Part shown: piece by piece, positions 21,171 to 58,700 of the stretch
Position numbering within the stretch: the stretch's first letter is position 1
Layout of the letters: each line of letters opens with the position of its first letter
Assembly: GCA_021799035.1 (NCBI GenBank)
Contig: JAJZBG010000005.1
Location: 1 to 64,000 of the forward strand
Direction of reading: 5' to 3'
Source: Actinomycetes bacterium
GTDB taxonomy: Bacteria > Actinomycetota > Acidimicrobiia > Acidimicrobiales > Acidimicrobiaceae
DNA length: 64,000 nt
Position numbers and translations under genes: made by a program
Notes under the pieces: model-generated
What the model saw: only the letters and a program-made list of their open reading frames with translations
Database searches by the model: none
What the model was told of the DNA's origin: nothing

Positions 21171-21199
21171 CTCACAAAACATGGCTTTTGGGCCGTAAT
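21171..21199 (+). promoter_or_regulatory. flagellar-type promoter CTCACA-N15-GCCGTAAT ahead of the 1040-aa glycosyltransferase
   Basis: The -35-like CTCACA (21171-21176) and -10-like GCCGTAAT (21192-21199) are separated by exactly 15 bases. The arrangement matches six other sites ahead of flagellar units in this window. It differs from the best -35 form by C for A at the fifth base. The predicted transcript starts near 21206. Confidence 0.55.
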
Positions 21200-21246
21200 A
21201 GAGGTGGCCAGATTGATGCCAAATGGATTTCGAAACCTGGAGCGCC

Positions 21247-24200
21247 ATGAGGATTGTAGTAGAGGGCAACCTGTCGCAAGCAGCAAGCTATGGCATCGTA
21301 AACTTCCGGCTTGGACAGGCACTTGCCGAGCTAGGCCATAAGGTATCTTTCGTTAGCTTGGACGTGCCACAGGACGACATTGCTTCACTCCTGAATTCAC
21401 ACAACCAAGCTAGCCTAGAGATGAGCGCAGGCGAACCCGAATATGCCGACGTGAGAATTCGACAGATTTGGCCGCCAATCTGGGTCCGACGTAAGCCAGA
21501 TGAACTTCTCATAGTCATTCAGCCTTGGGAGTTTGGGTCAATACCTCTCGAGTGGATCGATGGAATAAAAAATGTCGATGCCATCTGGGTCCCGAGCGAG
21601 TACACGAAACGAGGCTACATCCAATCCGGCATTGACTCCGCCAAGGTGTGGGTTGTGCCGAACGGAGCCGACTTCGAAGGCGTCGAACGCAGACGGGACA
21701 TCAACCGAGAAAGGAAAAGACTGGTCTATGTAGGCGGGGCCATCTACCGTAAAGGGATCGACATCCTCGTTGACGCGCTTGACATTCTCGATGACAACAC
21801 ACTGAACAGTCTCAGCCTGATCGTCAAAGAGTCGGGACGGGACACCTTCTACCAGGGTCAGTCATTGATCGACACTTCGTTGGAATCGCACCCAAGGGTA
21901 CAAGCCATAACCAAATTGAAAAGCGAACATATGGACAGAAGAGGCTTGCTCGAACTGATGGCAGATTGTGACGCGTTGGTTCACCCCTACAGAGCCGAAG
22001 GTTTCGGGTTGCCAGTCCTTGAGGCAATGACAATCGGTACTCCGATCATCCACACTCAGGGAGGGGCAACGAACGAATTCTGCGGACCAGGTGAGTCTCT
22101 GCTTATTCCTTCCTCGCTCAGGGTCGCCGACCTTCCCAAGGTGGGAAATTCCATGTTGGCAGACAAGTGCTACTGGATGGAGCCTTCGACAGAGCAATTA
22201 GGCCAGCTCATTGCTACTTTTGTACAAGGAGGCGCAAACCTCGAAACCCTTGCTGACGCGGCAAAGATCAGAGCACAAGACTTCTCTTGGGCTAACGTTG
22301 GCAAAATCGCACACGAGGCCATAACCAGACTTGCCGACGGTAAAACACCTCAAGATTCTCTCGCTTCTCTTGAAAAAGACATCTCCGATGCACTAGAAAG
22401 AAGCGGCTCAAGACCTGCGCCGATTCTCTCGCGATTGGTGGCCGTGGGAGATGTGAGTACCGCGTTCAACCTTGCCTCCTATTTCGAGGGACAGATCGAT
22501 CCCAGGGAAAGCACTGACATCGGATCGGTACGTGAAAGGCTTGCCTCGATCTCTTCCAACGCTCCCGACGTATGGTCAGGGGGCCCATATCGAATGATAG
22601 TGACGGCAGCTCAGTTCCAAAGTGAAGGCCACTTTGGATACGTTCACGACTTCGAAGGAGGTGACCAGGCAACCTACGCGATTGCTCTTCAGCTCTCGGG
22701 ATACCTACAGAACTGCAGTTCCGTGCTCGATCTTGCCTGCGGCCAAGGCTCGATGCTCAGAGTTCTTCGCAACCAAGGAAAGAAAACTCAAGGCCTCGAA
22801 GCAGATCCGTCGCTCGTCAGAAAGCTCATTGCCGACGGATTCACGATCCATGAAGGATACATTCCCTCAGACTTAGACAAGTTTGATTTCGAAGATTTCG
22901 ATGGCGTCTTCCTTGGGCATATTGTCGAGCATCTTCAGCCCAACGAATTCGAGACACTGCTCCAGTGGATTTATGAAAATATAGCTGACAAAGGCACCGT
23001 AGTTATCCAGACGCCGGACTTTGCCAACTCTGCGGTGGGGCTCCAGAATTTCTGGCTGGACTCATCACACGTGCGACCATATCCGATACCGCTTTTGAAA
23101 TCAATCCTCTCCAAGAGCGGCTTCGTGCCGGTGGATGGTGCATGCAGAAAGATACCTGAGATTGCGCCGCTCGACATCGTTGCCGTGGCACGTCGCATAC
23201 CTCGGAACAGAACCAACTATTCGCCCCAAAGTCCAAAAGCGACTAGAAGGATTCAGGTCGGCCATTATGCGCTGTTTAGTGGGGAGTCAGGATTCTCCCA
23301 AGCTTCGAGGGGCCTTCTCGACCAGGCTGGCCTTGGCAACGAAGGAATCGATACGATTCGCATCTCAGTCGATCAAAACGGTCCCAGCCAGCCTAATCCA
23401 GGCCAGGCTATACCCCTTAGCCTTTCTGACCGCATCGAACATGACGTCGCAATCGTAGATGTGCCTGCGGGTTGGTTGGCTGGTATAAACCCGGCGGCAA
23501 GGGCTCGCCACCGCATTGCACGCACAACTTTTGAGGCCACTCCCCTACCTTTACAGCTTCAGAATACCGTCGGATCCTTTGACGAAGTCTGGTGCTTCTC
23601 GCACTACGATGCGGAAATCCTCATCCAATCTGGAGTGGAATCAGGAGCAGTTTTCATAATTCCCCCCGGGATAGCGATACCGCACCCTGAGACGATCCTC
23701 GGGCTAAGAAAAAGTATTTCACGAGAAACGTTCCGATTCCTATCGGTCTTCAATTTCGAGCCGAGGAAGAACCCGGAAGCACTGATCAAAGCATTTAGCT
23801 CCGTCGCGTCAGAGATCTCTGGTGTCGAGCTCATCCTGAAATTAGGAGGAATCAACGCGGAGATGTTTGAAACGTGGCTCACAAACGTACTTGAACCCAC
23901 ACGGCTCTCTCAGATACGGAACCGCATCCACGTGATTGCCGGCACCCTACCACGGGAAAACCTGCTTGCCCTCTACCTTCAGAGCGATGCTTTTGTTCTT
24001 CCCACTCGGGGTGAAGGCTACGGCCTGCCCTTCCTCGAAGCGCTGGCTTATGGGCTCCCTACAATCTGTCCCGACATTGGAGGCCACCGCGAGTTCTGCA
24101 ACGAAAGCAATTCGCTACTTGTGAGTTCTTACGAAGCACCTGCACTCGCAAGCGCAGGTGCCGAAGTGTTTCGCGAGTCTTTTTGGCGTGAAGTCGACGT

Positions 24201-24369
24201 AGCTGACCTTGCAAAAGAGATGTGCGAGGCGGCCACGCACCCCGATCGCCTTGACGAACTTGGCAAACAAGGAATGGCTGCGGCTGCAAAATTCACGGAA
24301 ACAGCCTGCCAGGAGGCCTCACTGAAGCGTTTGTTGGAGATCACTGGCAGCAAAAAGGCCAAGCTCTGA
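21247..24369 (+). CDS. multidomain glycosyltransferase: GT4 - methyltransferase - GT4
   Basis: A predicted cytoplasmic fusion protein of 1040 aa. The N-terminal GT4 domain (about 1-370) has the donor motif HPYRAEGFGLPVLEAM. A class I SAM-dependent methyltransferase follows (motif I VLDLACGQGS near residue 493). The C-terminal GT4 domain (about 670-1035) has LPTRGEGYGLPFLEALAYG. ATG at 21247 has GGAG four bases upstream and begins at the family-typical MRIVVEGNLS; ATG at 21223 lacks a ribosome site. It abuts the flagellar cluster and carries the flagellar-type promoter, so flagellin glycosylation with a methylated sugar is a plausible role (inference). A cell-surface polysaccharide is the alternative. 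Confidence 0.85.
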   Translation: MRIVVEGNLSQAASYGIVNFRLGQALAELGHKVSFVSLDVPQDDIASLLNSHNQASLEMSAGEPEYADVRIRQIWPPIWVRRKPDELLIVIQPWEFGSIPLEWIDGIKNVDAIWVPSEYTKRGYIQSGIDSAKVWVVPNGADFEGVERRRDINRERKRLVYVGGAIYRKGIDILVDALDILDDNTLNSLSLIVKESGRDTFYQGQSLIDTSLESHPRVQAITKLKSEHMDRRGLLELMADCDALVHPYRAEGFGLPVLEAMTIGTPIIHTQGGATNEFCGPGESLLIPSSLRVADLPKVGNSMLADKCYWMEPSTEQLGQLIATFVQGGANLETLADAAKIRAQDFSWANVGKIAHEAITRLADGKTPQDSLASLEKDISDALERSGSRPAPILSRLVAVGDVSTAFNLASYFEGQIDPRESTDIGSVRERLASISSNAPDVWSGGPYRMIVTAAQFQSEGHFGYVHDFEGGDQATYAIALQLSGYLQNCSSVLDLACGQGSMLRVLRNQGKKTQGLEADPSLVRKLIADGFTIHEGYIPSDLDKFDFEDFDGVFLGHIVEHLQPNEFETLLQWIYENIADKGTVVIQTPDFANSAVGLQNFWLDSSHVRPYPIPLLKSILSKSGFVPVDGACRKIPEIAPLDIVAVARRIPRNRTNYSPQSPKATRRIQVGHYALFSGESGFSQASRGLLDQAGLGNEGIDTIRISVDQNGPSQPNPGQAIPLSLSDRIEHDVAIVDVPAGWLAGINPAARARHRIARTTFEATPLPLQLQNTVGSFDEVWCFSHYDAEILIQSGVESGAVFIIPPGIAIPHPETILGLRKSISRETFRFLSVFNFEPRKNPEALIKAFSSVASEISGVELILKLGGINAEMFETWLTNVLEPTRLSQIRNRIHVIAGTLPRENLLALYLQSDAFVLPTRGEGYGLPFLEALAYGLPTICPDIGGHREFCNESNSLLVSSYEAPALASAGAEVFRESFWREVDVADLAKEMCEAATHPDRLDELGKQGMAAAAKFTETACQEASLKRLLEITGSKKAKL

Positions 24370-24420: not shown

Positions 24421-25695
24421 CTACGGCATCGCCATAAGTGAAGCCATGGCCGTAGCGGTTGTGGTAATGACCTTTGTGTCAGCCTGATATGCAGTCTGAG
24501 CTTCGATCAACTTGGTGAGCTGAGAAGCCAGATCGACGTTGGATCCCTCGACTGCTCCTCCCTGAACTGTCCCAAGACCGTTACTTCCCGGCTGACCGAG
24601 TTGAGCATTTCCCGATGCGACAGTTGCACTGAAGTACGTTCCTCCCACGTCAAGCAGTCCTTGTGGGTTGGCGAACTGAGCCAAGGCTATAGTTCCGAGG
24701 GTCGCGCTATCTCCGTTCGAGTAAGTGCCTGTAATTACCCCGTTTGCGCCAATAGAGTACGACTCCAAAGTACCTGATGAATAACCATCCTGAGAAGTCA
24801 CAACAAGTGTTTGGTTACCGGAAAATTGCGTGACTGCCTGCTGAGACCCAACCGCTGGAAAATCGAAAGCTGGCATCGTTTTGCCAGTCCAGGTGTAATT
24901 GCTAGGTTCATTGTCTATTGCCAGACTCGTTTGCCCGGTTCCGACTGCTTTTCCGTTCACGGTGGAAAGCTGGCCGTTGCTTCCAAAAACGAGCGTTGGT
25001 GGAGTGTTCCACAGATTCTGCGAAGCACCTTGGACGGTTCCTTGCAAAGACCACGAAGTCGCGGTGCCGTTTGAGCCGATGGTTGGAGTAAACGTCAAGG
25101 TCACAGGAACCTGATTGCCCAAAGAGTCGTACATCGTGGTGGTCACGGTAACCGGACCTGTAGCATTGGCCGGGAGGTTGCCGGCAAGTATGGCATTCTG
25201 GGTTTGTGAAGGCCCACCGCTCGAACCAACAACGATGCTGATTGGCGTCGGTGGAGCCGTCGTTGGCTGGCCAGGCGCCCAGCCCTGCACAAGCCCCCCA
25301 CTTGCAGTCGAAAGATGTCCGTTGGCGTCTATCTGAAGATTCCCGTCCCTCGTGTAGTAGGCGTTGCCTCCCTGGTTCACGACCAAGAAGCCGTTGCCCT
25401 CTATGGCAACGTCGCTGTTCACTCCCGTCTGCTGAACGGCCCCTTGCGAGAAGTTTGTCTCGATCCCCGCGATTTGGACCCCAGAGCCGATAGCCGACGG
25501 GTTCGTGCTTGCTTGAGTCTGCCCAACCGCACCTGTTGCTGGCTGAAGCTGCTGGGTCAGCAAATCGGAAAACTCCGCGGTCTGCGAAGTGAAACCGTCT
25601 GTTTCAGAGTTGGCTATGTTGTTTCCGATTGTGTCAAGAGCTGTCTGCATCGTAACAATTCCTGATGCAGCCGCCCCAAGAGAACGAATTGGCAT
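24421..25695 (-). CDS. flgE: flagellar hook protein FlgE
   Basis: The hook subunit, exported by the flagellar secretion system, 424 aa. The N-terminal rod/hook signature MQTALDTIGNNIANSETDGFT-like stretch lies at about residues 17-37, with the hook-specific block GVNSDVAIEGNGFLVVNQGG after it. The C-terminal helix ends LASQLTKLIEAQTAYQADTK. AGGAG six bases before the ATG supports the start. It is the last gene of the flgB operon, about 100 bases after flgD; nothing is seen in that gap. Confidence 0.94.
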   Translation of the reverse strand: MPIRSLGAAASGIVTMQTALDTIGNNIANSETDGFTSQTAEFSDLLTQQLQPATGAVGQTQASTNPSAIGSGVQIAGIETNFSQGAVQQTGVNSDVAIEGNGFLVVNQGGNAYYTRDGNLQIDANGHLSTASGGLVQGWAPGQPTTAPPTPISIVVGSSGGPSQTQNAILAGNLPANATGPVTVTTTMYDSLGNQVPVTLTFTPTIGSNGTATSWSLQGTVQGASQNLWNTPPTLVFGSNGQLSTVNGKAVGTGQTSLAIDNEPSNYTWTGKTMPAFDFPAVGSQQAVTQFSGNQTLVVTSQDGYSSGTLESYSIGANGVITGTYSNGDSATLGTIALAQFANPQGLLDVGGTYFSATVASGNAQLGQPGSNGLGTVQGGAVEGSNVDLASQLTKLIEAQTAYQADTKVITTTATAMASLMAMP

Positions 25696-25798
25696 TCTTG
25701 TCTCCTATCTCAGTGGATGGAACACCCACTCCTTGCTTTTCAGTTCGTTGCTTTTCTTCGGTCCATGAGCAGTGTCGACCCCCTCGGCCTCGAATCAC

Positions 25799-26209
25799 TC
25801 ATGAGATCTTGGTTACGGATGAAAGATCTATTGACGTCCCGTTTACCTCCAATGTTGGACCACTAGTCCCGTTGGTTACACCCGACACAGTGCCTGAAAT
25901 CGACTTGCCACTTGCATCCGTCCCCGTGACAGACTTTCCGATGAGAGAAGCAGCTTCACTCATCTGCATCGAAGTAGACACTGTGTTGAGCTGTTCAACT
26001 TGAGACAGCTGCGCGAGCTGAGCCATGAAGTTCGACGAGCTCGTCGGATTCAGCGGATCTTGATATTTGATCTCGTCCACCAGCATGGTAAGAAAAGTGG
26101 TCGGCTGCACCAAGCTCGCCATGCCAGTGGAGCCCGATCCGTTAGATCCTGCTGTTGTAGAAGCTGCTGGAACCAGTGTGTTACTAATAGAGCTGATAGG
26201 CGCAGTCAT
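25799..26209 (-). CDS. flgD: flagellar hook assembly (capping) protein FlgD
   Basis: A 136-aa scaffold needed for hook polymerisation. The conserved N-terminal core is present: TTFLTMLVDEIKYQDPLNPT, then FMAQLAQLSQVEQLNTV. The C-terminal part, after ASLIGKSVTG, is short, so the Ig-like and tudor-like domains of enterobacterial FlgD (about 230 aa) are reduced. It lies between fliK and flgE. Confidence 0.9.
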   Translation of the reverse strand: MTAPISSISNTLVPAASTTAGSNGSGSTGMASLVQPTTFLTMLVDEIKYQDPLNPTSSSNFMAQLAQLSQVEQLNTVSTSMQMSEAASLIGKSVTGTDASGKSISGTVSGVTNGTSGPTLEVNGTSIDLSSVTKIS

Positions 26210-26226
26210 TATCTAGTCCCTTTCTC

Positions 26227-27588
26227 TCACAGAACAAGGTGTATCTTTCCACTAGTTGATGAAACGACATCAGCGGCTCTTCCTGAACCAGGCGAAGCCT
26301 CGACTTCTTGTGTCGGCTGAAATGATTGAGGATTGGAATAGCTTCCAGGTTGAGAGCCAGGATGCCGCAACGTCACGTTGACGCTCATGCCGCCTTGGGA
26401 AAGCTGATTTCTAAGAGCCGCAAGAGACCCGGACAAAGCGCTGTGTCCCGCATCGGTTTGCGGCGTCAACGAAACCTGCAACCCACCATGGCTAAGCGCC
26501 ACCACAGCCTCTACATGCCCCAACTCTGCTGGATGCATTGCAACAAGTAAGGCATGATTGCCGTAGCCGGCTGAAACTTGACGAAGGACAGCGCCGGAAA
26601 GTGTACCCACATCAAGCGGCAGCGGATCACGATATGCAGCTACGTCTGACGTCGCCGATGGAACCTCAACTTTCGCGAGCGTCGATGGCTTCAGTGATAT
26701 CGAGGCCAAGATCTGAGAACCCTCTTCACCTCGATTTGACTCCTTAGTTACGGCGATCCGTCTCTGCGGCTCGGCAGCAACAGGCTCAGCAACCAGACCG
26801 CCACTGGCTGGCCTAGCCTGCGTACCGACCCGAGCCGGCAGAGACAATTCCGAAGGAGATATTTTTTTCAGAGGTGACTCTGCAGCGCCTGAAGCAAGAG
26901 ACGCCGTTGAACCCCCATATTGGGCAGCCCGCTTAGCTGAATTGGCAAAACTCCCCTCCGTTTCGACCATTGGAGACGTTTTTGAAGTTGCGCTGGAGGG
27001 TGCTTTCCCCTTTCTGGAAGACTGCGAACCACTCTGTGACTGCGACGTGGTGATCTCTCTTTCTCGGCCACTCAATCCATGTGCAGGCAACAATCCTTGA
27101 CCAGCTACTCCCTTTGTAACCGCGCTCTTCCCGTTAGCTGGCACTAAGAGCATGCGACCTGTTTTGACACGGTCGGTGCCGCTAAGTCCTCTTCCCATGG
27201 TCCCAGATGGAGGTGAAATTGCAGATGAGGAGGAGCCTTCACCACTAAACACTTTCGCCTGAGGAGAGTTCGATTTCTGCTCATTTCCCACCACGCCGAG
27301 AGGCTCAAACGGAGCCACCTCAGTCACTAGCGATGTTCCGTGCTCGGCCGGCCTTTTTCTAGAACTTGACTTGTGAGACTGGCGTGGCTGCCTTCCAACA
27401 TGGGCAGCGAGCGTGCTCGCGCCACCAGCATTGCTCTCAAGCCCTTTTGCCCGCTCCGAAAGGACTTCGGAAAACGGCTGATCAGCGATATCTATGCTGG
27501 GAGCCTCGCTTCGGCCGTTTCTGCTAGACAAGCGAGAATCGGAAGATGGCCCCGAAGATTTCAGGAGTCCCACGATAGGTGCGTTCAT
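26227..27588 (-). CDS. fliK: flagellar hook-length control protein FliK
   Basis: A 453-aa secreted ruler. Most of the protein is low-complexity, Ser/Gly/Lys rich and presumably disordered. Only the C-terminal domain (about 340-425) shows the Flg_hook pattern, with LLVAMHPAELGHVEAVVALS, then LRNQLSQGGMSVNVTLRHPG. The start overlaps the end of the peptidoglycan hydrolase gene by 4 bases. Identity rests on the C-terminal domain and position before flgD. Confidence 0.85.
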   Translation of the reverse strand: MNAPIVGLLKSSGPSSDSRLSSRNGRSEAPSIDIADQPFSEVLSERAKGLESNAGGASTLAAHVGRQPRQSHKSSSRKRPAEHGTSLVTEVAPFEPLGVVGNEQKSNSPQAKVFSGEGSSSSAISPPSGTMGRGLSGTDRVKTGRMLLVPANGKSAVTKGVAGQGLLPAHGLSGREREITTSQSQSGSQSSRKGKAPSSATSKTSPMVETEGSFANSAKRAAQYGGSTASLASGAAESPLKKISPSELSLPARVGTQARPASGGLVAEPVAAEPQRRIAVTKESNRGEEGSQILASISLKPSTLAKVEVPSATSDVAAYRDPLPLDVGTLSGAVLRQVSAGYGNHALLVAMHPAELGHVEAVVALSHGGLQVSLTPQTDAGHSALSGSLAALRNQLSQGGMSVNVTLRHPGSQPGSYSNPQSFQPTQEVEASPGSGRAADVVSSTSGKIHLVL

Positions 27589-28736
27589 GCCGTTACCCCC
27601 TTGGGCGGTATGCCCGCCATTGAAAGAATGTTTGAAACGTATGCCTGGGTCTCGGGGTATGGTGGCACTCCTGAATACTTGGCAACCGCAGCAGGACCCG
27701 CATTATATGCAGCGAGCGCATTTGCATAAGACCCGAAGCTTGCGATGTAGGATGCGATGAGCTTGGCTGCAGCATTAATGGATTGAGTGGGATCGGCAGT
27801 GTCGATGCCCAAACCAGCTGCGGTAGACGGCATGAACTGGGCTATTCCGCGCGCTCCAGCCTCACTCACAGCCGATGGATTGAACCCGCTTTCCTGGGCA
27901 ATAAGGGCGGCTAGGAGTGACGAGGGTATTCCGTTGGCTGAAGCCGCATGCTCGATCGTCGACGCATATTGCGCTGGAACCTTAACGTTCCCGACGAGCA
28001 CATCCAAATAAGAGGAGGAATTGGGCAGTATCCTTCGAATCGCCACCACCGACCCAGCGCTCGAAACCGGCTGAACCTGAACGGTGGTACCGGAGTACGG
28101 GGCATCAATCATCTCTCCATTGCCGACATATATGCCTACGTGTCCAGGCGATGCAGGAGTACCGTCCGACCCCGCAAAGAACAGCAGATCGCCAGGTTGG
28201 GCATTTGCCAGATTCGGGACAGCCGTGCCCACCTTTGCCTGTGCCTCGCTTGTCCTAGGAATGCTGATACCCAACTCTCCATACACGTATTGCGTGAACC
28301 CTGAACAGTCAAAACCACGTGGGTTAGTACCACCCCAGACATAGGGGGTGCCCGCTAGCTGAACAGCCTTGGCGACCACATCCTGTCCGGCCGGAACGCT
28401 GACTTGGGTCGGAGTACCGCCAGCAGGCGCTGTGCCCAGCCCCTGCTGTGCCGACAGAATCATCGATAGTAAATTCATCACGTTCTGCTGGCCACTGATT
28501 CCAGACGATCCATTGTTTACTGAGTCCAGGGCACTCTGACTCTGAGTGCTCGCTGCCGAAAGAGTATCCAAGGCCATCTGCTCGCTCGTGATCTTTGCCA
28601 GAGTGGCAGCAAATGATTGACCAGCACTGGATGTAGGGCTTTCCCCAACTTCGGGCCCCTTGCTGGCATTGCTTCCGGCCAGCAGTGCAGGAGCAAACTG
28701 GTTTTGCGGCACTTGCTGGACCCCCCCAACGGTCAT
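27585..28736 (-). CDS. bifunctional peptidoglycan hydrolase: NlpC/P60 endopeptidase plus SLT lytic transglycosylase
   Basis: A 383-aa protein in the flagellar operon with two cell-wall hydrolase domains. The NlpC/P60 domain (about 118-240) has catalytic C144 in FDCSGF and H199 in GHVGIYVG. The SLT domain (about 255-375) has catalytic E282 in AQESGFNP and the motif GIAQFMPSTAAGLG. The first 100 residues are Ser/Gln rich, with a stretch like the non-catalytic N-termini of flagellar proteins and no signal peptide, so export through the flagellar system is likely (inference). It sits between fliJ and fliK and probably replaces FlgJ in opening the wall for the rod. Start and stop overlap its neighbours by 4 bases. 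Confidence 0.85.
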   Translation of the reverse strand: MTVGGVQQVPQNQFAPALLAGSNASKGPEVGESPTSSAGQSFAATLAKITSEQMALDTLSAASTQSQSALDSVNNGSSGISGQQNVMNLLSMILSAQQGLGTAPAGGTPTQVSVPAGQDVVAKAVQLAGTPYVWGGTNPRGFDCSGFTQYVYGELGISIPRTSEAQAKVGTAVPNLANAQPGDLLFFAGSDGTPASPGHVGIYVGNGEMIDAPYSGTTVQVQPVSSAGSVVAIRRILPNSSSYLDVLVGNVKVPAQYASTIEHAASANGIPSSLLAALIAQESGFNPSAVSEAGARGIAQFMPSTAAGLGIDTADPTQSINAAAKLIASYIASFGSYANALAAYNAGPAAVAKYSGVPPYPETQAYVSNILSMAGIPPKGVTA

Positions 28737-32212: not shown

Positions 32213-32241
32213 CTATCTATCGCCCCACTTCCCGCCAGAAC

Positions 32242-33825: not shown

Positions 33826-33834
33826 CTCACCCAC

Positions 33835-34182: not shown

Positions 34183-34184
34183 CT

Positions 34185-34607: not shown

Positions 34608-34615
34608 TTTAGCTC

Positions 34616-35852: not shown

Positions 35853-35861
35853 GATGACTCC

Positions 35862-38474: not shown

Positions 38475-38482
38475 CGGGACAG

Positions 38483-45704: not shown

Positions 45705-45782
45705 GAAACCCTCTCCCTTAAATTCCGTCATGGTTACTATACGCCCCCCAGCTTGCCTTGAAAAAGATGGTTATCGGTCAGA

Positions 45783-46682: not shown

Positions 46683-46683
46683 C

Positions 46684-48628: not shown

Positions 48629-48657
48629 TTAACGACCTTCAACTGCCGATAATTGAG
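48629..48657 (-). promoter_or_regulatory. flagellar-type promoter CTCAAT-N15-GTCGTTAA ahead of flgN
   Basis: Minus-strand CTCAAT (48652-48657) and GTCGTTAA (48629-48636), spacer 15. It lies in the only gap between the flhA and flgN units. The predicted start is within 2-3 bases of the flgN GTG. Confidence 0.6.
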
Positions 48658-50042: not shown

Positions 50043-52128
50043 GATCCACACTCCCTACAACTGAGATCTTCATTGCGGAACTTATCTCGCCCACAGCTAG
50101 GACACCGAGCCGGGGGAGGCTTGGGGTGACCAAGCGACGAAGAGCCGGACGAAGCCTGTTAGCGCAAATCAAGACCGGGCTGTTACCCTGCGATTCGGCG
50201 TCGCGCAAGAGGCGCCCGATCTCGCGTACGATTGCTTCGGCTTCGTTGGCAGCTATGGCAACATTTCTCCTGCCACGCTCACCAGTTCTGAGCAAAGTGA
50301 GAAGCCCCTGCTCCAGAGCCGGGGCAAACGTGATCGCCCAAATAGTGTCGTCCTTCTCGTACATAGACGTAATAGTGGCAGCGATTGCAAGTCTGGCCGC
50401 CTCGACCAAAGAGTCGGTGTCTTTCTGCTGGGTTCTGGCCTGCTCCGTGAGAGCTTCGACGATCCGCACCAGGTCTCGAACCGGGATACCCTCATCAAGC
50501 AGATCTCTTAGAACTCCCTGGATGTCGCCGAGCGTAAGATTGGCCGCGGTGATCTCCTCCAGCACGACTGGATTGCTTCCTCTTAGGACGTCGAGAAGCA
50601 GCTTGGTGTCCTGGCGGGAAACCAGGCTCCCGGCATGCTCGCGAACAATCTCTGCAAGATGGGTTGTAACAACTGCCGAACGATCGACCACCGTGACACC
50701 TGCCACGGCAGCCTGATGGCTAAGACCGATGGGAATCCACTTCGCCCTACCTCCGAAGGCAGGATCGCGAGTATCAATTCCACTGAGATGGTCCAGATTC
50801 TCTCCGATTGCCAAAAGCTTCCCTCGGGGGGCTTGTCCCCGCGCTACTTCGACGCCGTGGACTTTTATGGCATAGTCGACATTGGGGAGATCGAGGTTAT
50901 CCCTTGTATGGACCTTCGGCATGACTATTCCCAACTCGTTCGCGATGTTGCGTCTTAGAAGCTTGACCCGGTCCAGCAGATCTCCCCCCCTGTCAGCTTG
51001 AACCAAATCGATGAGCTCAAGACCTAGCTCCAGACTCAAAGGCTCGACAGCCATTGCCGCAGCCAAAGTCTCTGGCGACTCATCTGGCACTTCAATCGGA
51101 TTGGGTTCGGCTTGGGCTCCATCTGGCGTCACATCACTGGGCAAGCGCCTACCAAAAAAGAAAACTGCGCCTCCAATGATCAAGAATGGGAGCTTTGGCA
51201 AACCAGGTACCAGTGCGAGTATCGCCATTATCAGCCCCGCAGTCCGCACCACCCGCCTGAAACGAGAAAGCTGCTGCACCACGCTGTGACCGAGGTCGTG
51301 CTCTCCGGCCGCCCGGGTCACGATGATTCCTGTTGAAAGCGAGAGCAGAAGAGCCGGTATCTGTGATACGAGTCCGTCGCCAACAGACAAAAGGCTGTAG
51401 GTGTCAACAGCTTGAGTGATAGCTAGGTGACGCTGAACGATTCCTATGGTGAGTCCCCCAATTAGGTTCACCATGGTGATCACGATCGCTGCTATGGCGT
51501 CACCGCGAACGAACTTGGACGATCCATCCATCGCGCCATAGAAGTCTGCTTCGTCCGCGATCTCCTGCCTCCGGCGGCGTGCCTCCTGCTCGTCAATTGC
51601 ACCCGAAGCCCGATCGGCATCGATGGCCATCTGCTTTCCAGGCATTGCATCGAGAGTAAAGCGTGCGGCTACCTCGGCTACGCGTCCTGATCCGGAGGTT
51701 ATGACGACGAATTGGATGATTATCAAGATGAAGAACACCACTAAGCCAACAACTATGGACCCACCTATGACAAAGTGCCCGAAGCTTTCGACGACGACCC
51801 CGGCATAGCCATGGAGCAGTACCTGACGGGTCACAGCCACATTAAGTGCCAGACGGAACATTGTGGCTATCAATACGAGCGTTGGAAAGACCGAGAAGTC
51901 CAGCGGGCGCTTTACCTGCATCGCAGTCAAGAGCACCAGCACAGAAGCGGTTATGTTAGCCGTTATCAAAAGATCGATAAGAAAAGTGGGAAGCGGGATT
52001 ACGAGCACCACGACCACTGCTACTACCGATAGGGGAACAGCCATATGGGAGAATTGAGACCATCTGCCCCCAGTTGTGACAGGTGCCTTAGGCATGTTGT
52101 AATCCGGCAAAGTCAAGCTGCATAGCAC
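50020..52128 (-). CDS. flhA: flagellar export gate protein FlhA
   Basis: The main membrane component of the export gate, 702 aa (691 from the internal ATG at 52095, which looks more family-like). About eight N-terminal helices begin VVVVLVIPLPTFLIDLLITA; the FHIPEP-region motif RLALNVAVTR and the loop FTLDAMPGKQMAIDADRASG are present. The C-terminal cytoplasmic domain starts near residue 340 and binds chaperone-substrate complexes. The flagellar-type promoter lies at 52195-52223, so flhA can be expressed apart from the flbD operon. Confidence 0.96.
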   Translation of the reverse strand: MLCSLTLPDYNMPKAPVTTGGRWSQFSHMAVPLSVVAVVVVLVIPLPTFLIDLLITANITASVLVLLTAMQVKRPLDFSVFPTLVLIATMFRLALNVAVTRQVLLHGYAGVVVESFGHFVIGGSIVVGLVVFFILIIIQFVVITSGSGRVAEVAARFTLDAMPGKQMAIDADRASGAIDEQEARRRRQEIADEADFYGAMDGSSKFVRGDAIAAIVITMVNLIGGLTIGIVQRHLAITQAVDTYSLLSVGDGLVSQIPALLLSLSTGIIVTRAAGEHDLGHSVVQQLSRFRRVVRTAGLIMAILALVPGLPKLPFLIIGGAVFFFGRRLPSDVTPDGAQAEPNPIEVPDESPETLAAAMAVEPLSLELGLELIDLVQADRGGDLLDRVKLLRRNIANELGIVMPKVHTRDNLDLPNVDYAIKVHGVEVARGQAPRGKLLAIGENLDHLSGIDTRDPAFGGRAKWIPIGLSHQAAVAGVTVVDRSAVVTTHLAEIVREHAGSLVSRQDTKLLLDVLRGSNPVVLEEITAANLTLGDIQGVLRDLLDEGIPVRDLVRIVEALTEQARTQQKDTDSLVEAARLAIAATITSMYEKDDTIWAITFAPALEQGLLTLLRTGERGRRNVAIAANEAEAIVREIGRLLRDAESQGNSPVLICANRLRPALRRLVTPSLPRLGVLAVGEISSAMKISVVGSVDREVVATV

Positions 52129-52194: not shown

Positions 52195-52223
52195 TTTACG
52201 TCCCTACCTGAGTCAAAATTGAG
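52195..52223 (-). promoter_or_regulatory. flagellar-type promoter CTCAAT-N15-GACGTAAA ahead of flhA
   Basis: Minus-strand CTCAAT (52218-52223) and GACGTAAA (52195-52202), spacer 15, in the 120-base gap between flhB and flhA. Confidence 0.6.
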
Positions 52224-52248: not shown

Positions 52249-53334
52249 TCAGCTTGACATCCTGTGAACATCGTTCAGCACTTTAGCTGTGGAAGATAGA
52301 GAGTACACGAATGCCAGAAGCTGGGCGACAGCAGCATAGAGTTCAGGAGGGATTACGTCGTCAACCTCACATGAGGCGTGAAGCGTTCTCGCAAGAGGAG
52401 GATTCTCAACTATCGCGACTCCGCAGCTACGTGCCTTCTCGCGAATCGCAGCGGCATTGAAATCCGCCCCTTTCGCCACAACTTTCGGCGCACGATCCTT
52501 GTGGCGGTCGTATGCTATGGCCACCGCATAGTGTGTTGGGTTCGTGACAACAACGTCTGACCGGGCAACGGCAGCCATGATCTGCTGCCGTGACAGGGCG
52601 CGTGCTTTGCTCTTTTGAGCTCTGCGCATTTCAGGAGATCCCTCATTTTCCCGAAACTCCCGTTTGACCTCTTCCTTTGTCATTTTCAGATCCTGCTGAT
52701 GCTTTCGCCTTTCAAAGTAATAGTCAGCACCGGCAATGGCCAGCGCCAAGGCCCCTATGACACGCATGAGCTTGACAAGAGTCGATGAGGCAAGAAGCAG
52801 GGTCTGCTGCAAAGGGAGAGTTCCACCCCCTAGTACGCCACCCACAAGCTGATGAATGATGAAATATCCGACGAGCGCAAGAACGATGAGCTTGAGAAAT
52901 GTCTTGCCGAGTGTCCAAGCTCCCTGACTGGAGTAGATCCTACTGAATCCTGACTTCGGCGATATCCTAGAAAACTTCATCCTCATCGCCTTTGGCGTGA
53001 AGACCAGTCCAACCTGGGCAACCGCAACAGCTACGGCGAGCACCCCGGCGAACATCAATATCGGCACTGCCGCTTCCGCTGCGGTTGCAAGGCCATTGCC
53101 GACCAGGCCGGCCGCCTTCCCCATATCGGGATGCGCCATAGCATCGGCGGTCTCTTGCATGAAACTGGTTACACGTCCGGCAACGGTTCCTCCAAGCTGC
53201 GGCAAGAACGAAGCTACCAGCAGAACTGCGGCCCACCCACCCAGTTCAGCCGATCTGGCTACGTTGCCTTCTTCACGCATCTCCTTGCGGCGCTTCGGCG
53301 TGGGTTTTTCAGTTCGCTGGGACTTGTCTGCCAC
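52249..53334 (-). CDS. flhB: flagellar export switch protein FlhB
   Basis: Export-gate protein controlling the switch from hook to filament substrates, 361 aa. Four membrane helices occupy about 30-210. The self-cleavage motif NPTH is at residues 265-268 in VVTNPTHYAVAIAY. The N-terminus KSQRTEKPTPKRRKEMREEG is typical. The GTG start shares a base with the fliR stop. Confidence 0.96.
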   Translation of the reverse strand: MADKSQRTEKPTPKRRKEMREEGNVARSAELGGWAAVLLVASFLPQLGGTVAGRVTSFMQETADAMAHPDMGKAAGLVGNGLATAAEAAVPILMFAGVLAVAVAVAQVGLVFTPKAMRMKFSRISPKSGFSRIYSSQGAWTLGKTFLKLIVLALVGYFIIHQLVGGVLGGGTLPLQQTLLLASSTLVKLMRVIGALALAIAGADYYFERRKHQQDLKMTKEEVKREFRENEGSPEMRRAQKSKARALSRQQIMAAVARSDVVVTNPTHYAVAIAYDRHKDRAPKVVAKGADFNAAAIREKARSCGVAIVENPPLARTLHASCEVDDVIPPELYAAVAQLLAFVYSLSSTAKVLNDVHRMSS

Positions 53335-54095
53335 TAGAATCCCCCGAAAAGCTGGGCGAATGCCTTGCCAACCATGTTGGTCACATCAGCGGGCAGCGCG
53401 ACCAGAGCGACGCTCACTCCAACCAGCGCAACAGTGACCTGAAGCGGCATTCCGAAGACGAAAACGTTGATCTGAGGAACCGCCTTTGCCAGCAACGCAA
53501 GAAGTATTTGAGTGCCGAAAAGCACAACTATGACAGGGGCCGCAATCTCCACCGCCGCAGCGAAGAAGGTGACGACGTCCCCAGTGACGGTCTGGGCCAG
53601 CACTCCAAGAGAAACAGGTGGGAGGCTAGTCCCAACTGCTTGAAAGGATCTTACGAAACCTGCCACTATGACCACGACAGAGCCGGTCGTAAACAGGAGC
53701 GCCGTCAATACCAGATTGTAGAATTGCCCAAAAATTGGCGTCTGCTGCTGAGAAAGCGGGTCTATCGCTTGCGGAAGGTTCAATCCTGAAAACAGGTCTA
53801 TCAGACTTCCGGCACCAACTACAACGTTCACAAAGAGTGAGACGATGTACCCCAGCACCACCCCGACGACAGCCTGAATCACGATCTGCACCATTATTCC
53901 GGCATCACTTTGGGGCAAAGCGTCATGCTGCAAGCTCCCTGCTGCAAGAAATGCTATGGCCCCAGCCAGGCCAATCTTAACCTTTGAAGGTATCGAGACA
54001 TTGGAAAAAGGTGGACAGACAACCACCCACGCAACGGATCGGGCAAATGCCAGAACCAGTGCGATTATAAAGCTGGGAGAAAGGCTTACGGTCAT
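53334..54095 (-). CDS. fliR: flagellar export gate protein FliR
   Basis: A 253-aa membrane protein of the export channel. Six hydrophobic segments are seen, starting SPSFIIALVLAFARSVAWVV, with the family block GLNLPQAIDPLSQQQTPIFG and the ending AVPQINVFVFGMPLQVTVAL. The frame is open to 54170, but ATG at 54095 overlaps the fliQ stop as ATGA and begins at the family start. Confidence 0.95.
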   Translation of the reverse strand: MTVSLSPSFIIALVLAFARSVAWVVVCPPFSNVSIPSKVKIGLAGAIAFLAAGSLQHDALPQSDAGIMVQIVIQAVVGVVLGYIVSLFVNVVVGAGSLIDLFSGLNLPQAIDPLSQQQTPIFGQFYNLVLTALLFTTGSVVVIVAGFVRSFQAVGTSLPPVSLGVLAQTVTGDVVTFFAAAVEIAAPVIVVLFGTQILLALLAKAVPQINVFVFGMPLQVTVALVGVSVALVALPADVTNMVGKAFAQLFGGF

Positions 54096-54370
54096 CCCTG
54101 TCCTGTAATCATCTGCGGGATTGAATTGTAAAGATGCTCGGTATACACAACGATGTTTCCTAACATCCAATGGCCCAAAAAGAGCAGCACCACAGCGATA
54201 GCCGCCACCTTTGGCAAAAACGTAAGGGTGAACTCTTGAATAGAGGTGACAGCTTGAAATACAGCAATGACGAATCCCACCGCCAGGCTTGCCACAAGCA
54301 CTGGGCCGGCGAGTTCAGTTATCAGGACTAGCGCCTGAGAAGCCAGGTTCAAAACGGCGGTATCACTCAT
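54092..54370 (-). CDS. fliQ: flagellar export gate protein FliQ
   Basis: A 92-aa protein with two membrane helices. The motif GPVLVASLAVGFVIAVFQAV followed by TSIQEFTLTFLPKVAAI is the FliQ signature. It lies 4 bases after fliP and overlaps fliR. Confidence 0.95.
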   Translation of the reverse strand: MSDTAVLNLASQALVLITELAGPVLVASLAVGFVIAVFQAVTSIQEFTLTFLPKVAAIAVVLLFLGHWMLGNIVVYTEHLYNSIPQMITGQG

Positions 54371-54374
54371 GGCA

Positions 54375-55064
54375 TCAGTGGTTAAAGGAGATAAGGAGGG
54401 AGTGGACTACAAGCGTCCATCCATCAACCAGTACGAATAGGAGTATCTTGAATGGAAGCGAGATCAAAGTGGGCGGCAGCATGTACATGCCCATTGACAT
54501 CATTACAGCAGAGACCACCAGATCGATGATCATGAATGGGATGAAGATCATGAATCCTATCAAAAACGCTGACTCTATCTCGGACAGCACGAATGCTGGA
54601 ATTACTGTGGTCATCGGAAGTGAAGCAGGTTTGCTTGCATCCTCATGGCTGTAAGAGGCGAACATGTCGAGTTCCTGCTGTTTCGTCTGCTTCAACATCC
54701 ACTCTTTAAGCGGCACCTCACCGTTGTCGATTGCTTGTGTAGCACTAATCGTTCCGTGTTCGTACGGCTGGATTGCCACATGATTGATGTTCGAAATCAC
54801 AGGTGCCATTATGAAGAGCGAAAGTATCAACGCCAATCCAGCCAGAACCTGGTTAGGTGGTACCGTTTGCGTCCCCATGGCATTCCGCGTGAGTGCAAGC
54901 ACGATGAACACTCGTGGAAAGGCCGTCATCAACATGAGCACAGAAGGGGCAACGGCGAGCAATGTCAATACCACGATTATCAGCACAGAAGTGGACGGGC
55001 TTCTGAGTCCGCTGATATTCACATTGACACTCGAGCTTGCAGCTAAGAGCTCAAGATACATCAT
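54375..55064 (-). CDS. fliP: flagellar export gate protein FliP
   Basis: A 229-aa membrane protein of the export channel. The family motifs FPRVFIVLALTRNAMGTQTV, then PPNQVLAGLALILSLFIMAP and FMIFIPFMIIDLVVSAVMMS are clear. It starts 76 bases after fliO; nothing is recognised in that gap. Confidence 0.96.
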   Translation of the reverse strand: MMYLELLAASSSVNVNISGLRSPSTSVLIIVVLTLLAVAPSVLMLMTAFPRVFIVLALTRNAMGTQTVPPNQVLAGLALILSLFIMAPVISNINHVAIQPYEHGTISATQAIDNGEVPLKEWMLKQTKQQELDMFASYSHEDASKPASLPMTTVIPAFVLSEIESAFLIGFMIFIPFMIIDLVVSAVMMSMGMYMLPPTLISLPFKILLFVLVDGWTLVVHSLLISFNH

Positions 55065-55140
55065 CAGCCCCCAAAGGGCCCTGATGCTTGTGTTTCCAAA
55101 GCATGAGTACTCCCATAGGAGGGAGCGCCAGGCACAAATA

Positions 55141-55563
55141 CTAGTGCCGGACAGTCATCTCCCTTAGACGGTCTATGAAGGCATCCCATGCCCCTGGGCA
55201 ATTGATCCCAGAGCCCAACGCCGTCCTTGGCGCCAGGATTTGTTTGACGTCACTGTCTAAAGCCGTGCCAACCGAACCTTCGTGGCCATCTTGGCCATCC
55301 GCTAATTCTGCCAACATGGTCATCTGCTGCGTGCTCTGACCAACCAAGAATGTTCGTCCAGCAACACGTATTACCAGTAAAGAGACATGCTGGCCAAGTG
55401 AGCGGCGTGAAAGCACTTCAATCTGCCCAAACGGTACTCCTCCAAACCGGCCGCTACCTACCAACTGGCGTTTTTTGGCAACTCTGGACAACAGATAGAG
55501 GCCGCCTACAATCAAGCCAAGTACGAGGATCATACGGCCAAATGCCAGAAGTGAGGCACCCAT
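55141..55563 (-). CDS. fliO: flagellar biosynthesis protein FliO
   Basis: A small membrane protein that helps FliP assembly, 140 aa. One helix (about 8-26, FGRMILVLGLIVGGLYLLSR) is followed by the FliO cytoplasmic pattern IEVLSRRSLGQHVSLLVIRV and AGRTFLVGQSTQQMTML. It directly follows fliN. Confidence 0.88.
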   Translation of the reverse strand: MGASLLAFGRMILVLGLIVGGLYLLSRVAKKRQLVGSGRFGGVPFGQIEVLSRRSLGQHVSLLVIRVAGRTFLVGQSTQQMTMLAELADGQDGHEGSVGTALDSDVKQILAPRTALGSGINCPGAWDAFIDRLREMTVRH

Positions 55564-55881
55564 TCACAACGCCTCGTCGGTGACGATCTCAGTTATTCGA
55601 ATTCCGTACTCGTCTCCTACTTCTACCACTTCGCCACGGGCAAGCACGACCTCACGATTGAGGACGATTTCGATTGGTGCACCGACAGGCTGGTCAAGTT
55701 CGATGACCCGGCCGGGACGCAGATCGCTCAACTCCCCAAAAGTGAGTTTCGTTTTTCCTATCCAGGCCGAAACCTCGACCGATACGTTTCTGAACTGCGC
55801 TTGACGAACATGCACCCTTTCTGCCTCAAGATGTTCTGATGCAAGAGAAACGCGATCGACTCCCTCTTCGACGGCCGTCAC
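55564..55881 (-). CDS. fliN: flagellar motor switch protein FliN
   Basis: The C-ring subunit, 105 aa. It is a single SpoA domain with VSVEVSAWIGKTKLTFGELS, then LRPGRVIELDQPVGAPIEIV and ARGEVVEVGDEYGIRITEIV. There is no CheY-phosphatase (FliY) extension. It is coupled to fliM by an ATGA overlap. Confidence 0.95.
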   Translation of the reverse strand: MTAVEEGVDRVSLASEHLEAERVHVRQAQFRNVSVEVSAWIGKTKLTFGELSDLRPGRVIELDQPVGAPIEIVLNREVVLARGEVVEVGDEYGIRITEIVTDEAL

Positions 55882-56762
55882 CTTGTTACCTCCTCCTTGA
55901 TTTCACAGGCCTTGTGCACACCGGAACTACATATATCCGCTAAAGCCACAAGAATCCCTTCCGCCCGAACCTCCAATGGGCGGCCCTTCGGGTGACCCAG
56001 ACCCAAACTGTCTCCCACCCGAAGGGTGAGCAGCTCTGCTGGAGTCGTCAAAATGCTCGGAAATTGAAACACGACATCCATCGGAACGTCCATCAGGCGC
56101 CGGTGAGTATCAAGCAAAGACTCCTTTCGCCCCTTTTCGACGAGGGCTGTCTTAGCCTTGAGGAAGTCGATAAAGGTCCTAACCATCTCGAACGGCAGGC
56201 AAATGAGGGCTTCCCTAGGAGGTCTATCAGCCACGAAAAAAGACAGCCTTATGACCATGCACATCTCCGAAGGCGAGCCGACTGAAACGAAAAGGATATT
56301 TGCTTCTTGTGCCTCGAGTGTCGGAGAGGTATTTTGAATCCTTGCAAATGCGTTGCCCAACTCCCCGATGAAATCCTCGAAAATAGGAGTCAGAAAGGCC
56401 TGGTCGATTTCACTCGGAATTCGACCGGAGTAGTCATCGTCGCCCGATCCAGCCAACCTAAGATCGACTATCGCCAATACCTCCTCAGTCGGGATGGCTA
56501 GCACTGCGCGCCCTTCAATGGGCGGTAGCGAAAATGTGAAAAAATACATGCCGGTCTCAAACTCTTCTACAAGGTCTGACCAGGCGAGTTGATCAAACCC
56601 CTCGAATTCGAACATGCATGGCTGATGCAGGGTGGAGGTGAACTTCTGCGTAGCAGAACGGGCGAAGTTCTCCAGGAGTTTCTGCATAGCCTGAAGATTT
56701 GCTCGTTCTATCACATCTCCTCGGCTGAAATCGTGACTCTTGATACTTTTGTCCGCAATCAT
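55878..56762 (-). CDS. fliM: flagellar motor switch protein FliM
   Basis: The C-ring subunit that receives the CheY signal, 294 aa. The middle CheC-like domain and the C-terminal SpoA domain (about 215-285, PMDVVFQFPSILTTPAELLT) are present. The N-terminus is SHDFSRGDVIERANLQAMQK; the usual N-terminal CheY-binding motif LSQxEIDALL is not seen, so switching may differ. The start is 31 bases after motB; no fliL lies between them. Confidence 0.92.
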   Translation of the reverse strand: MIADKSIKSHDFSRGDVIERANLQAMQKLLENFARSATQKFTSTLHQPCMFEFEGFDQLAWSDLVEEFETGMYFFTFSLPPIEGRAVLAIPTEEVLAIVDLRLAGSGDDDYSGRIPSEIDQAFLTPIFEDFIGELGNAFARIQNTSPTLEAQEANILFVSVGSPSEMCMVIRLSFFVADRPPREALICLPFEMVRTFIDFLKAKTALVEKGRKESLLDTHRRLMDVPMDVVFQFPSILTTPAELLTLRVGDSLGLGHPKGRPLEVRAEGILVALADICSSGVHKACEIKEEVTR

Positions 56763-56793
56763 GGCACTCCAACTCCCACGTGGTCACAACTCC

Positions 56794-57546
56794 TCATGAC
56801 GTGAAGCTGGCGGTCGGGCTGACAACGATATTGACTCTCCGATTCTCTGCCTGGCCCGATGGAGAGCTGTTCGAAACCAGCGGGTGATATTTGCCGTAGC
56901 CTATTAGAGCCACCCGGCTCGGATCGACCCCGTCTGTCTTGGTCATGCGCACAACTACAGTTGTTGCCCGTGCTGCCGACAGTGCCCAGTTGCTCGCGTA
57001 AGGTCCACCAGTTATTGGTTCGTTGTCCGTATAACCTGCCACCTGGATGGCATTCGGAAATTTCTTCACGACTGACGAAGCGGTGTCGACTATCTGCTTG
57101 CCGATCTGGGTGAGATCGGCCGAGTCGGTGCCGAAGAAGGTCGAGTCTGTCACCAGGCCAACCACTAATCCCGCGGACTGCATGGAAATCTTGACATCCC
57201 CCAAAAGGCCCTGCGAACTCAGGGCGCTTTCCAGTTGCTGCTGAATTTTTGCAAGCTGGCTTGCCTGGGTAGAAGAGTTTGTCTGGCTTGCCTCGGGCAA
57301 TGTCGTTGTAACGAGATTCGTTGTACCGTGAGGGACGTGCGAGAGAACAGCCTTTGATATTGACTGTTTGAACTCCTGATACTTCGCCTGGTTTACCGTT
57401 GAGATGGCGAACAGCACTATGAACAGCACCAGTAAGAGGGTGATCATGTCCGCGTAAGTCAGAAGCCACCGCTCTCCACTTGGCTCTCCGTGACCGCCTT
57501 CCCCTCCGTGTGAACCCTTCGAACGTCTTAAACTTGTGCCATTCAT
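56794..57546 (-). CDS. motB: flagellar stator protein MotB
   Basis: The peptidoglycan-anchored stator subunit, 250 aa. The single helix follows RWLLTYADMITLLLVLFIVL, with the proton-binding Asp at D33. The C-terminal OmpA-like domain has VAGYTDNEPITGG, then NWALSAARATTVVVRM and the ending GQAENRRVNIVV. The 304-aa open frame over the same region is a shadow. Confidence 0.95.
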   Translation of the reverse strand: MNGTSLRRSKGSHGGEGGHGEPSGERWLLTYADMITLLLVLFIVLFAISTVNQAKYQEFKQSISKAVLSHVPHGTTNLVTTTLPEASQTNSSTQASQLAKIQQQLESALSSQGLLGDVKISMQSAGLVVGLVTDSTFFGTDSADLTQIGKQIVDTASSVVKKFPNAIQVAGYTDNEPITGGPYASNWALSAARATTVVVRMTKTDGVDPSRVALIGYGKYHPLVSNSSPSGQAENRRVNIVVSPTASFTS

Positions 57547-57560
57547 GACTATTCCTAAAC

Positions 57561-58349
57561 CTAAGCGGCTTCATCTGGAGCCTCTCCAATCGAACCTCTT
57601 CCAGTTGCCTGGTCACGCTCAGATGGAGGGAGATACGCGTACAGGCGGTCTTTGAGTTCAGTAGTAGAAGCATTGAGCTGCATTGTCAACAGGCCTTCGA
57701 CCACCATTTCACGGAAGGCCACTTCCTCGCCTGAAAGACGTCGCAGCTTATTCGAGATTGGCAACCAAACAGCATTGGCTAATAGGACTCCCCACAAGGT
57801 GGCGGTGAACGCGGATGCGATTGCTGGGCCGAGCTTTCCAGGCGAACTCAACTGTCCAAGCACACCAATGAGCCCGACCACTGTACCGAGGATGCCGAAG
57901 GTAGGAGAGAAGCCGGCGATGTCCGAAAAGAACTTTGCGGCTGTTTCATGGCGCATCCTGAGGCTTTCGATTTCCGAAGCCATCAATTCGCTTACCCTCT
58001 CTGGCTCAGAGGTGGAGATTATGAGTTGGATTCCCTTTTTCAGAAAGATGTCCTCTGTTTCAAACTCTTCAAGAACCAGCGGATTACTGCGAGCCTCCTT
58101 TGCTATGGCAATTAGGGCTTCAATCGTCGCACGAGTATCAGGCCCTTTATTTGGCTTCAACGCTTTGATGAATGCCTTGGGGACGGCCTTGAGGCGCCGG
58201 CCTTCAAAGCCAGCCATAGTAGCGCCCACACTCCCGCCTACAACGAGAAGCAGTGAGGACACCTTGATTAAAGATGCAAGGTTCTCATGGTCCATTGTCA
58301 TGGCGCCAATAAGCGCCACCAACGCCAGTACTATTCCAATCGGGGTCAT
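57561..58349 (-). CDS. motA: flagellar stator protein MotA
   Basis: The proton-channel subunit, 262 aa, with four helices. The motif SPTFGILGTVVGLIGVLGQL and the following SAFTATLWGVLLANAVWLPI are typical, and the cytoplasmic loop between helices 2 and 3 is basic and acidic as expected. The ending LYAYLPPSERDQ is also common in MotA. It overlaps flbD by 4 bases. Confidence 0.95.
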   Translation of the reverse strand: MTPIGIVLALVALIGAMTMDHENLASLIKVSSLLLVVGGSVGATMAGFEGRRLKAVPKAFIKALKPNKGPDTRATIEALIAIAKEARSNPLVLEEFETEDIFLKKGIQLIISTSEPERVSELMASEIESLRMRHETAAKFFSDIAGFSPTFGILGTVVGLIGVLGQLSSPGKLGPAIASAFTATLWGVLLANAVWLPISNKLRRLSGEEVAFREMVVEGLLTMQLNASTTELKDRLYAYLPPSERDQATGRGSIGEAPDEAA

Positions 58350-58633
58350 TGATCTCTCACCTGCGAAAGAAGCGTCATTTCCGGCACTGCCGAGCGCAGA
58401 GTTGGTGAGGGCGCGGATGCATGGTCTTGCGACACTTGCCTGACCCTACGCAGCAAGGTCGCCTTTTCCGTGCGAATCTTATCGACAACGCTCGCAGAAT
58501 CGTTGGCAACCACCACATGACCACCATTAATCATGTACACCGCAGACTGACCGTCGACCCCATCTTCAACTCGCTCTATGAGGTCTTCATTCAGATACAT
58601 CGTCGATCCATCAAGCTTTTTAAGTGTAATCAC
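58346..58633 (-). CDS. flbD: FlbD/SwrD-family flagellar protein
   Basis: A 95-aa protein whose first 65 residues are the FlbD domain (ITLKKLDGSTMYLNEDLIER, then VYMINGGHVVVANDSASVV). In Bacillus the homologue SwrD raises motor torque. GTG at 58633 with GGTG upstream is preferred over the longer frame to 58693, which would run into the promoter. It opens the flbD-motAB-fliMNOPQR-flhB operon. Confidence 0.9.
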   Translation of the reverse strand: MITLKKLDGSTMYLNEDLIERVEDGVDGQSAVYMINGGHVVVANDSASVVDKIRTEKATLLRRVRQVSQDHASAPSPTLRSAVPEMTLLSQVRDQ

Positions 58634-58671
58634 TTGCTCACCACCCCTACAAGAGGGAACTCCTGGATCTT

Positions 58672-58700
58672 CTAACGGCCGGAGCAGACACAAAATTGAG
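58672..58700 (-). promoter_or_regulatory. flagellar-type promoter CTCAAT-N15-GCCGTTAG ahead of flbD
   Basis: Minus-strand CTCAAT (58695-58700) and GCCGTTAG (58672-58679), spacer 15, about 40 bases before the flbD GTG. Confidence 0.65.

Follow-up and report, generated by a model that had tools for sequence, protein, structure and literature searches.

Which promoter signal serves the flagellar operons of an Acidimicrobiaceae bacterium, and which sigma factor reads it? The stretch of DNA analysed here (the window) comprises 64,000 nucleotides of contig JAJZBG010000005.1 (assembly GCA_021799035.1). It contains a flagellar gene cluster and a gene for a FliA/WhiG-like sigma factor (43988..44863, plus strand), and belongs to a genome of 2.47 Mb (G000; 97 contigs, ~95% complete). 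According to the original prediction, seven transcription units of this region are headed by one promoter signature, CTCAAY-N15-GNCGTWA. Our analysis makes it likely that six of the sites serve as promoters, one for each of the six flagellar units, that they are read by the cluster sigma factor and that this pair was derived from the ordinary sigma–promoter pair of the order.

Six sites at the heads of the flagellar operons

The seven reported sequences were all found in place and on the correct strands. Four of them (39384, 48629, 52195 and 58672) matched CTCAAY-N15-GNCGTWA exactly, with a chance expectation of 0.01 in the window, and the other three deviated from it. Two of the latter, 35030 (GCCGTAT) and 42960 (GTCAAT/GACGTAG), were one to two letters off, yet they fit a better consensus, STCAAYT-N13-GGNCGTW, which is matched exactly by six sites and not by 21171.

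The six predicted promoters are on the minus strand. They are CTCAAC-N15-GCCGTATA ahead of flgB and its operon (35030..35058), CTCAAC-N15-GCCGTAAG ahead of fliC-fliD-fliS (39384..39412), GTCAAT-N15-GACGTAGA ahead of a large glycosyltransferase gene (42960..42988), CTCAAT-N15-GTCGTTAA ahead of flgN-flgK-flgL-fliW (48629..48657), CTCAAT-N15-GACGTAAA between flhB and flhA, ahead of flhA (52195..52223), and CTCAAT-N15-GCCGTTAG ahead of flbD in the flbD-motA operon (58672..58700).

Genome-wide tests were pattern searches with the reversed pattern as control, and matches were also counted with up to one mismatch. The whole genome contained six exact matches to STCAAYT-N13-GGNCGTW, all at heads of flagellar operons of the cluster, a distribution that agrees with a sigma-28/WhiG promoter. 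The original prediction had named as a refutation a scan with as many matches inside genes as ahead of flagellar units; by this criterion, it was not refuted. With one mismatch, 15 matches were found, compared to 27 for the reversed control; almost all of those inspected were intragenic, and none convincingly headed a gene.

The sites were also scored with a weight matrix built from relatives only, namely G005 and G006 (of the genus of the window) and G386 (of another family). Window sites were excluded from the matrix, and ~128,000 window positions were scored. The six sites ranked 1–6 with 18.6–30.3 bits, and the next site reached 12.6 bits. In random 64-kb sequences, the mean maximum was 12.2 bits, and the top of 200 trials was 20.3 bits. 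The seventh site, CTCACA-N15-GCCGTAAT (21171..21199, plus strand) ahead of the glycosyltransferase gene 21223-24369, ranked 36th with 2.5 bits; a leave-one-out test placed it 22nd. It is unsupported as a member of the motif, so the claim of one shared signature holds for six units.

Conservation in close relatives

The flagellar clusters of G005, G006 and G386 have much the same gene order, and the orthologous sigma factors are 74–88% identical. Sites were present at orthologous places for all six in G006, for three of three on the available contig in G005 and, clearly, for five in G386, with a spacer of 15 in every case. The sites at 48629, 52195 and 58672 have counterparts in all three genomes, and those at 35030 and 39384 have them in G006 and G386. 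The 42960 site is found at the same place and in the same form in G006, and a weaker counterpart exists in G386 (L083:3413).

Near relatives are alike in sequence, and the lenient score cut used for the comparison of -10 boxes (next subsection) also passes about a quarter of in-gene windows. Both would fit a resemblance due to chance or to shared descent of functionless spacer DNA. This explanation is extremely improbable, as the six paralogous sites in G000 share the motif despite spacers that are unrelated to one another, only six matches exist in 2.47 Mb and the scores are far above random. Moreover, the motif is kept in G386, a member of another family, while the spacer sequences differ.

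The -10 box as the derived half

The original prediction regarded the -10 box as related to the sigma-28/WhiG consensus and the -35 box (CTCAA) as peculiar to this locus. Across the order (397 genomes), the opposite was found. The pattern CTCAAS-N15-GCCGATA occurred in 187 genomes, compared to ~21 matches in all for the reversed control, and had zero matches in the G000 and G386 genomes. In flagellated members of the order, it precedes flhA, meaning that the same -35 box and spacer are combined with the canonical sigma-28 -10 box; the 52195 site ahead of flhA aligns with these sites. CTCA-type -35 boxes with GCCGAT were also found in Nocardioides, Aeromicrobium, Geodermatophilus and Patulibacter, in some of them with a spacer of 14. 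CTCAA is common in the order, and the -10 box is the derived half (GNCGTWA for GCCGATA), with T replacing A at position 5, and the two halves had been interpreted the wrong way round.

An operator, i.e. a binding site for an activator or a repressor over ordinary promoters, could also take the form of two conserved parts with a constant distance between them. We consider this very unlikely. The element is neither an inverted nor a direct repeat, and base by base, with an equal spacer, it can be aligned to the CTCAAS-N15-GCCGATA boxes of sigma-28 type in sister clusters. It lies as far from the genes as would be suitable for a promoter, and sigma-70-like promoters in the flagellar region were no commoner than expected by chance.

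For the comparison of position 5, the top-scoring site per operon head was taken, with this position omitted from the score. The compared genomes are mostly fragmented assemblies. T was found at 36 of 38 sites in nine genomes (G000, G005, G006, G386, G326, G257, G167, G137 and G399; referred to as T-type), and A at 35 of 39 sites in other genomes. The contrast has a Fisher's p of ~1e-18; given the common descent of the sites, however, it counts as a single evolutionary contrast rather than as 77 independent ones. The nine T-type genomes form a single clade in the FlhA tree (support 100/99), and hence one switch suffices.

In the window clade, none of the -10 core positions is invariably A, with T at position 5, A or T at position 6 and mostly A at position 7. 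Within the T-type clade, the -35 box varies further: the window clade has CTCAAY, G326 has CTAAAG or CTCAAC, and G257, G167 and G137 have GGCAAR. The f32 sub-lineage has GGCAAR or GGAAAA. G109 and G326 have CTAAAG at the equivalent position. The literature searched, which did not extend to subscription papers, contained no description of this -10 variant.

The cluster sigma factor as the probable reader

The local FliA/WhiG-like sigma factor had been named as the likely reader, and by sequence comparison it is the best candidate. The motif and an orthologous sigma factor co-occur in G000, G005, G006 and G386, and orthologues were found only alongside the motif. Among the 397 genomes, the cluster sigma factor was found only in G000 and G386, which are also the only two with motif matches clustered in the flagellar locus. 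The protein comprises sigma-70 regions 2, 3 and 4 (Pfam); its best NCBIfam models are WhiG and FliA_WhiG, and its best PDB matches include WhiG and FliA. In eight of the nine T-type genomes (G000, G005, G006, G386, G399, G257, G167 and G137), a FliA-like sigma gene shares its contig with the flagellar genes and is close to those of the cluster. For 21 other flagellated genomes, the best-matching sigma gene was near flhA in none.

The promoter-reading regions differ as well. Regions 2.3–2.4/3.0 and 4.2 of the cluster sigma factors diverge from the near-invariant type of the order. In the ordinary sigma factor of the order, the -10-reading helix is near-invariant, and so is the recognition helix (GVTESRVCQIHTKAVLQLR); the window sigma factor has FSTYATIRIQGAIIDEMRKDDILPKRMRARVR in the former and GIDRSRVTQLIQQGLRNLR in the latter. 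Relative to E. coli FliA, it has the replacements Q73I, R76Q, W88I, R91K and S92R. In E. coli FliA, D81, R84 and R91 have been linked to recognition of the -10 box. D81 and R84 are kept in the window sigma factor, and R91 is replaced by K. It is suggestive that this replacement corresponds to a free second base of the -10 box, which is C in the canonical box.

G257 contains both sigma types: an ordinary WhiG/FliA-type sigma factor is encoded on contig C83, and a cluster-linked one on C142, the contig of the flagellar operons. These operons have boxes resembling GNCGTWA, and the five GCCGATA sites of this genome are found on other contigs. This layout serves as a natural internal control and is as expected of an insulated pair. 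One of the five sites, CTCAAG-N15-GCCGATA at L263 (G257:C119), is located ahead of a gene whose product resembles, by eye, PilM, a protein of type IV pili. There is a hint that the WhiG-type sigma factor of the order drives type IV pili; for Rubrobacter, a WhiG-type sigma factor was proposed to control them (PMC8325347).

Several points weigh against the reading that the cluster sigma factor recognizes the six sites and that its changes and those of the -10 box are coupled. The sigma factor scored below the curated cut-offs of its families (159.5 vs 189.6 bits for TIGR02479 and 159.8 vs 343 for PRK06288). In G326, the assigned sigma gene is on another contig. The window clade and G399 have lost W88, which the f32 group retains along with R91, its changes being elsewhere. 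As the changes differ between sub-lineages, no single residue explains the switch. In the sigma tree, eight of the nine T-type sigma factors group together at 82/83 and G399 is unplaced; the sequences are fast-evolving. The support from G399 is thin, as it contributes a single good site (fliC). The site-score cut of the position-5 comparison was lenient, with 31 of 118 in-gene windows (26%) also passing, though without an excess of T. Finally, CGTW resembles an ECF-type (extracytoplasmic function) -10 box. The sigma tree was also considered as proof of a single origin of the T-type readers and was discarded for this purpose: it is indecisive, and the sequences evolve too fast.

Comparison with known promoters

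ECF promoters have a -35 box of the GGAAC type. CTCAAY in the window clade does not correspond to it; GGCAAR, which is confined to the f32 sub-lineage, and GGAAAA are near to it. The -10 motif of ECF sigma factors, X(C/G)-G-T-Y(A/T/C) (PMC10575876), agrees with the CGTA or CGTT present at the six sites, and the AAY of the -35 box at a distance of ~17 bp would suit an ECF sigma factor. Nevertheless, it is unlikely that the boxes are promoters read by an ECF-type sigma factor encoded elsewhere. In the window clade, CTCAA and the spacer of 15 equal those of the FliA-type promoters of the order at the same genes, and eight of the nine T-type genomes encode a FliA-like sigma factor within or next to the cluster. 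The linked sigma factor of the window is FliA-like, with regions 2, 3 and 4, unlike ECF sigma factors. No ECF gene was recognized among the cluster genes (no ECF census of the genomes was made).

A FliA-type reader is preferred. The closest known systems also include sigma-28 and WhiG promoters. The E. coli/Salmonella sigma-28 (FliA) promoter is TAAAGTTT-n11-GCCGATAA; the CGA of its -10 box is highly conserved in E. coli, and sigma-28-dependent activity was lost when its three bases were all changed (PMC2859248). In Streptomyces and Rubrobacter, WhiG-type promoters consist of TAAA and GCCGATAA (PMC8325347). The window sites share with sigma-28 promoters the two boxes, a near-equal spacing, the flagellar genes, a FliA-family sigma factor and G-N-C-G in the -10 box. 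TCAA-N16-GNCG is present at all six sites, in agreement with the 14–16 spacing between TAAA and GCCG of sigma-28/WhiG promoters. The differences are TCAA instead of TAAA, a spacing longer by one base, C, A or T as the second base of the -10 box and, at all six sites, T instead of the A of the essential CGA (GNCGTWA). Separate early and late promoter classes are not apparent: unlike in E. coli/Salmonella, the export, hook, motor and filament operons are all under one signal.

By profile, the cluster sigma factor belongs to the same clade as the WhiG-type sigma factors of Streptomyces and Rubrobacter, and the ordinary CTCAAS-N15-GCCGATA sites of the order are of the WhiG kind. The window sites differ from WhiG-type promoters in position 5 of the -10 box and in their targets, which are flagella here and sporulation or type IV pili there. 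Flagellar promoters in Actinoplanes missouriensis were reportedly described by Jang et al. in 2016 as CTCA-N15-17-GCCGAA. They have the same -35 CTCA and a similar spacer, but GCCGAA keeps the A after CG.

Transcription units and neighbouring genes

The cluster comprises six units on the minus strand. Operon 1 (24421..34969) contains flgB, flgC, fliE, fliF, fliG, fliH, fliI, fliJ, an NlpC/P60-transglycosylase gene, a fliK-like gene, flgD and flgE. Operon 2 (35451..39316) contains fliC, fliD and fliS, and unit 3 (39428..42952) is the large glycosyltransferase gene, which is conserved in the G006 and G386 clusters. Operon 4 (45237..48620) contains flgN, flgK, flgL and fliW, and operon 5 (48673..52128) contains flhA and following genes without a Pfam match. 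Operon 6 (52249..58693) contains flbD, motA, motB (56794-57546), fliM, fliN, fliO, fliP, fliQ (54092-54370), fliR and flhB. The six predicted promoters would account for all flagellar transcription units of the cluster.

The original prediction had listed a fliD unit and the sigma gene as lacking a site. The latter was confirmed. The former probably reflects a wrong division into units: fliC and fliD are co-oriented and ~80 bp apart, and there is no good site between them, nor is there one in the relatives. Hence, fliC-fliD-fliS is best read as one operon, and a separate promoterless fliD unit was dropped. Two start codons are affected by the predicted promoters. The GTG start at 42952 is only 8 bases past the 42960 site, so the message would be leaderless or the true start further in; if the 58672 site is a promoter, flbD would start at an internal GTG near 58633. 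A longer open reading frame (ORF; 56759-57673, minus strand) overlaps motB in a different frame, and the real motB is 56794-57546, with MotB_plug and OmpA domains.

A conserved ORF (43159..43815, plus strand) lies upstream of the sigma gene, between it and the glycosyltransferase gene. It has a charged, helical-looking C-terminus and is kept in G005, G006 and G386 with 57–74% identity. It was rejected as a known anti-sigma factor, with no Pfam match and no NCBIfam match above the cut-off. FlgM was not recognized among the annotated genes, and an RsiG-type partner was not recognized by the family searches run. This ORF could be a candidate for the missing anti-sigma factor.

Two very large multi-domain glycosyltransferases are encoded in or beside the cluster (39428-42952, minus strand; 21223-24369, plus strand), and the former may glycosylate flagellin. 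Inside operon 1, 27585-28736 (minus strand) encodes an NlpC/P60 endopeptidase fused to a lytic transglycosylase domain, perhaps a wall-opening enzyme for the rod. The signalling domain of methyl-accepting chemotaxis proteins had no match in the G000 genome at its ~95% completeness, and motility seems to run without ordinary chemoreceptors. In view of this negative result, chemotaxis genes were set aside as additional targets of the motif.

Proposed origin and meaning of the promoter switch

The cluster FlhA is 78% identical to that of G386, from another family, vs 51–55% to those of the window's own family, and it grouped with G386. No WhiG/FliA-like sigma factor of the family's usual type was found in the G000 genome, and several genomes of the window's genus do not have the cluster sigma factor. 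The simplest reading of these comparisons is that the cluster and its sigma factor were acquired horizontally.

The ancestral pair would have been a WhiG/FliA-type sigma factor encoded elsewhere and reading CTCAAS-N15-GCCGATA. In the lineage with the cluster-borne sigma factor, the fifth -10 base would have changed from A to T throughout the flagellar boxes, along with the promoter-reading regions of the sigma factor. Region 4.2 of the cluster sigma factor would act on CTCAAYT, and regions 2.4/3.0 on GNCGTWA. The switch would probably insulate the flagellar operons, which would answer to the cluster sigma factor alone, as a single tier. The cluster could then move between genomes together with its regulator.

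The non-template adenine at -11 was called universal, and its capture by sigma-28 was said to nucleate melting (PMC12781870). By alignment only, position 5 of the box corresponds to this base. It is conceivable, and we propose it tentatively, that the FliA-type sigma factor of this clade can open promoters of flagellar genes without an A at -11, and that promoters and cluster sigma factor switched once and together, giving an orthogonal pair beside the WhiG-type pair (both in G257). The sigma factor might capture T instead, or the melting register might be shifted by one base, as in ECF promoters.

Flagellar sigma factors are a textbook case of strict and conserved promoter recognition, and here T replaces the A that is aligned with the base captured by the polymerase. 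The comparison corrects promoter prediction for this group and provides a candidate orthogonal sigma–promoter pair. As both states of the -10 box are alive in relatives and both sigma types are present in G257, the evolution of sigma specificity could be tested here by a few swaps.

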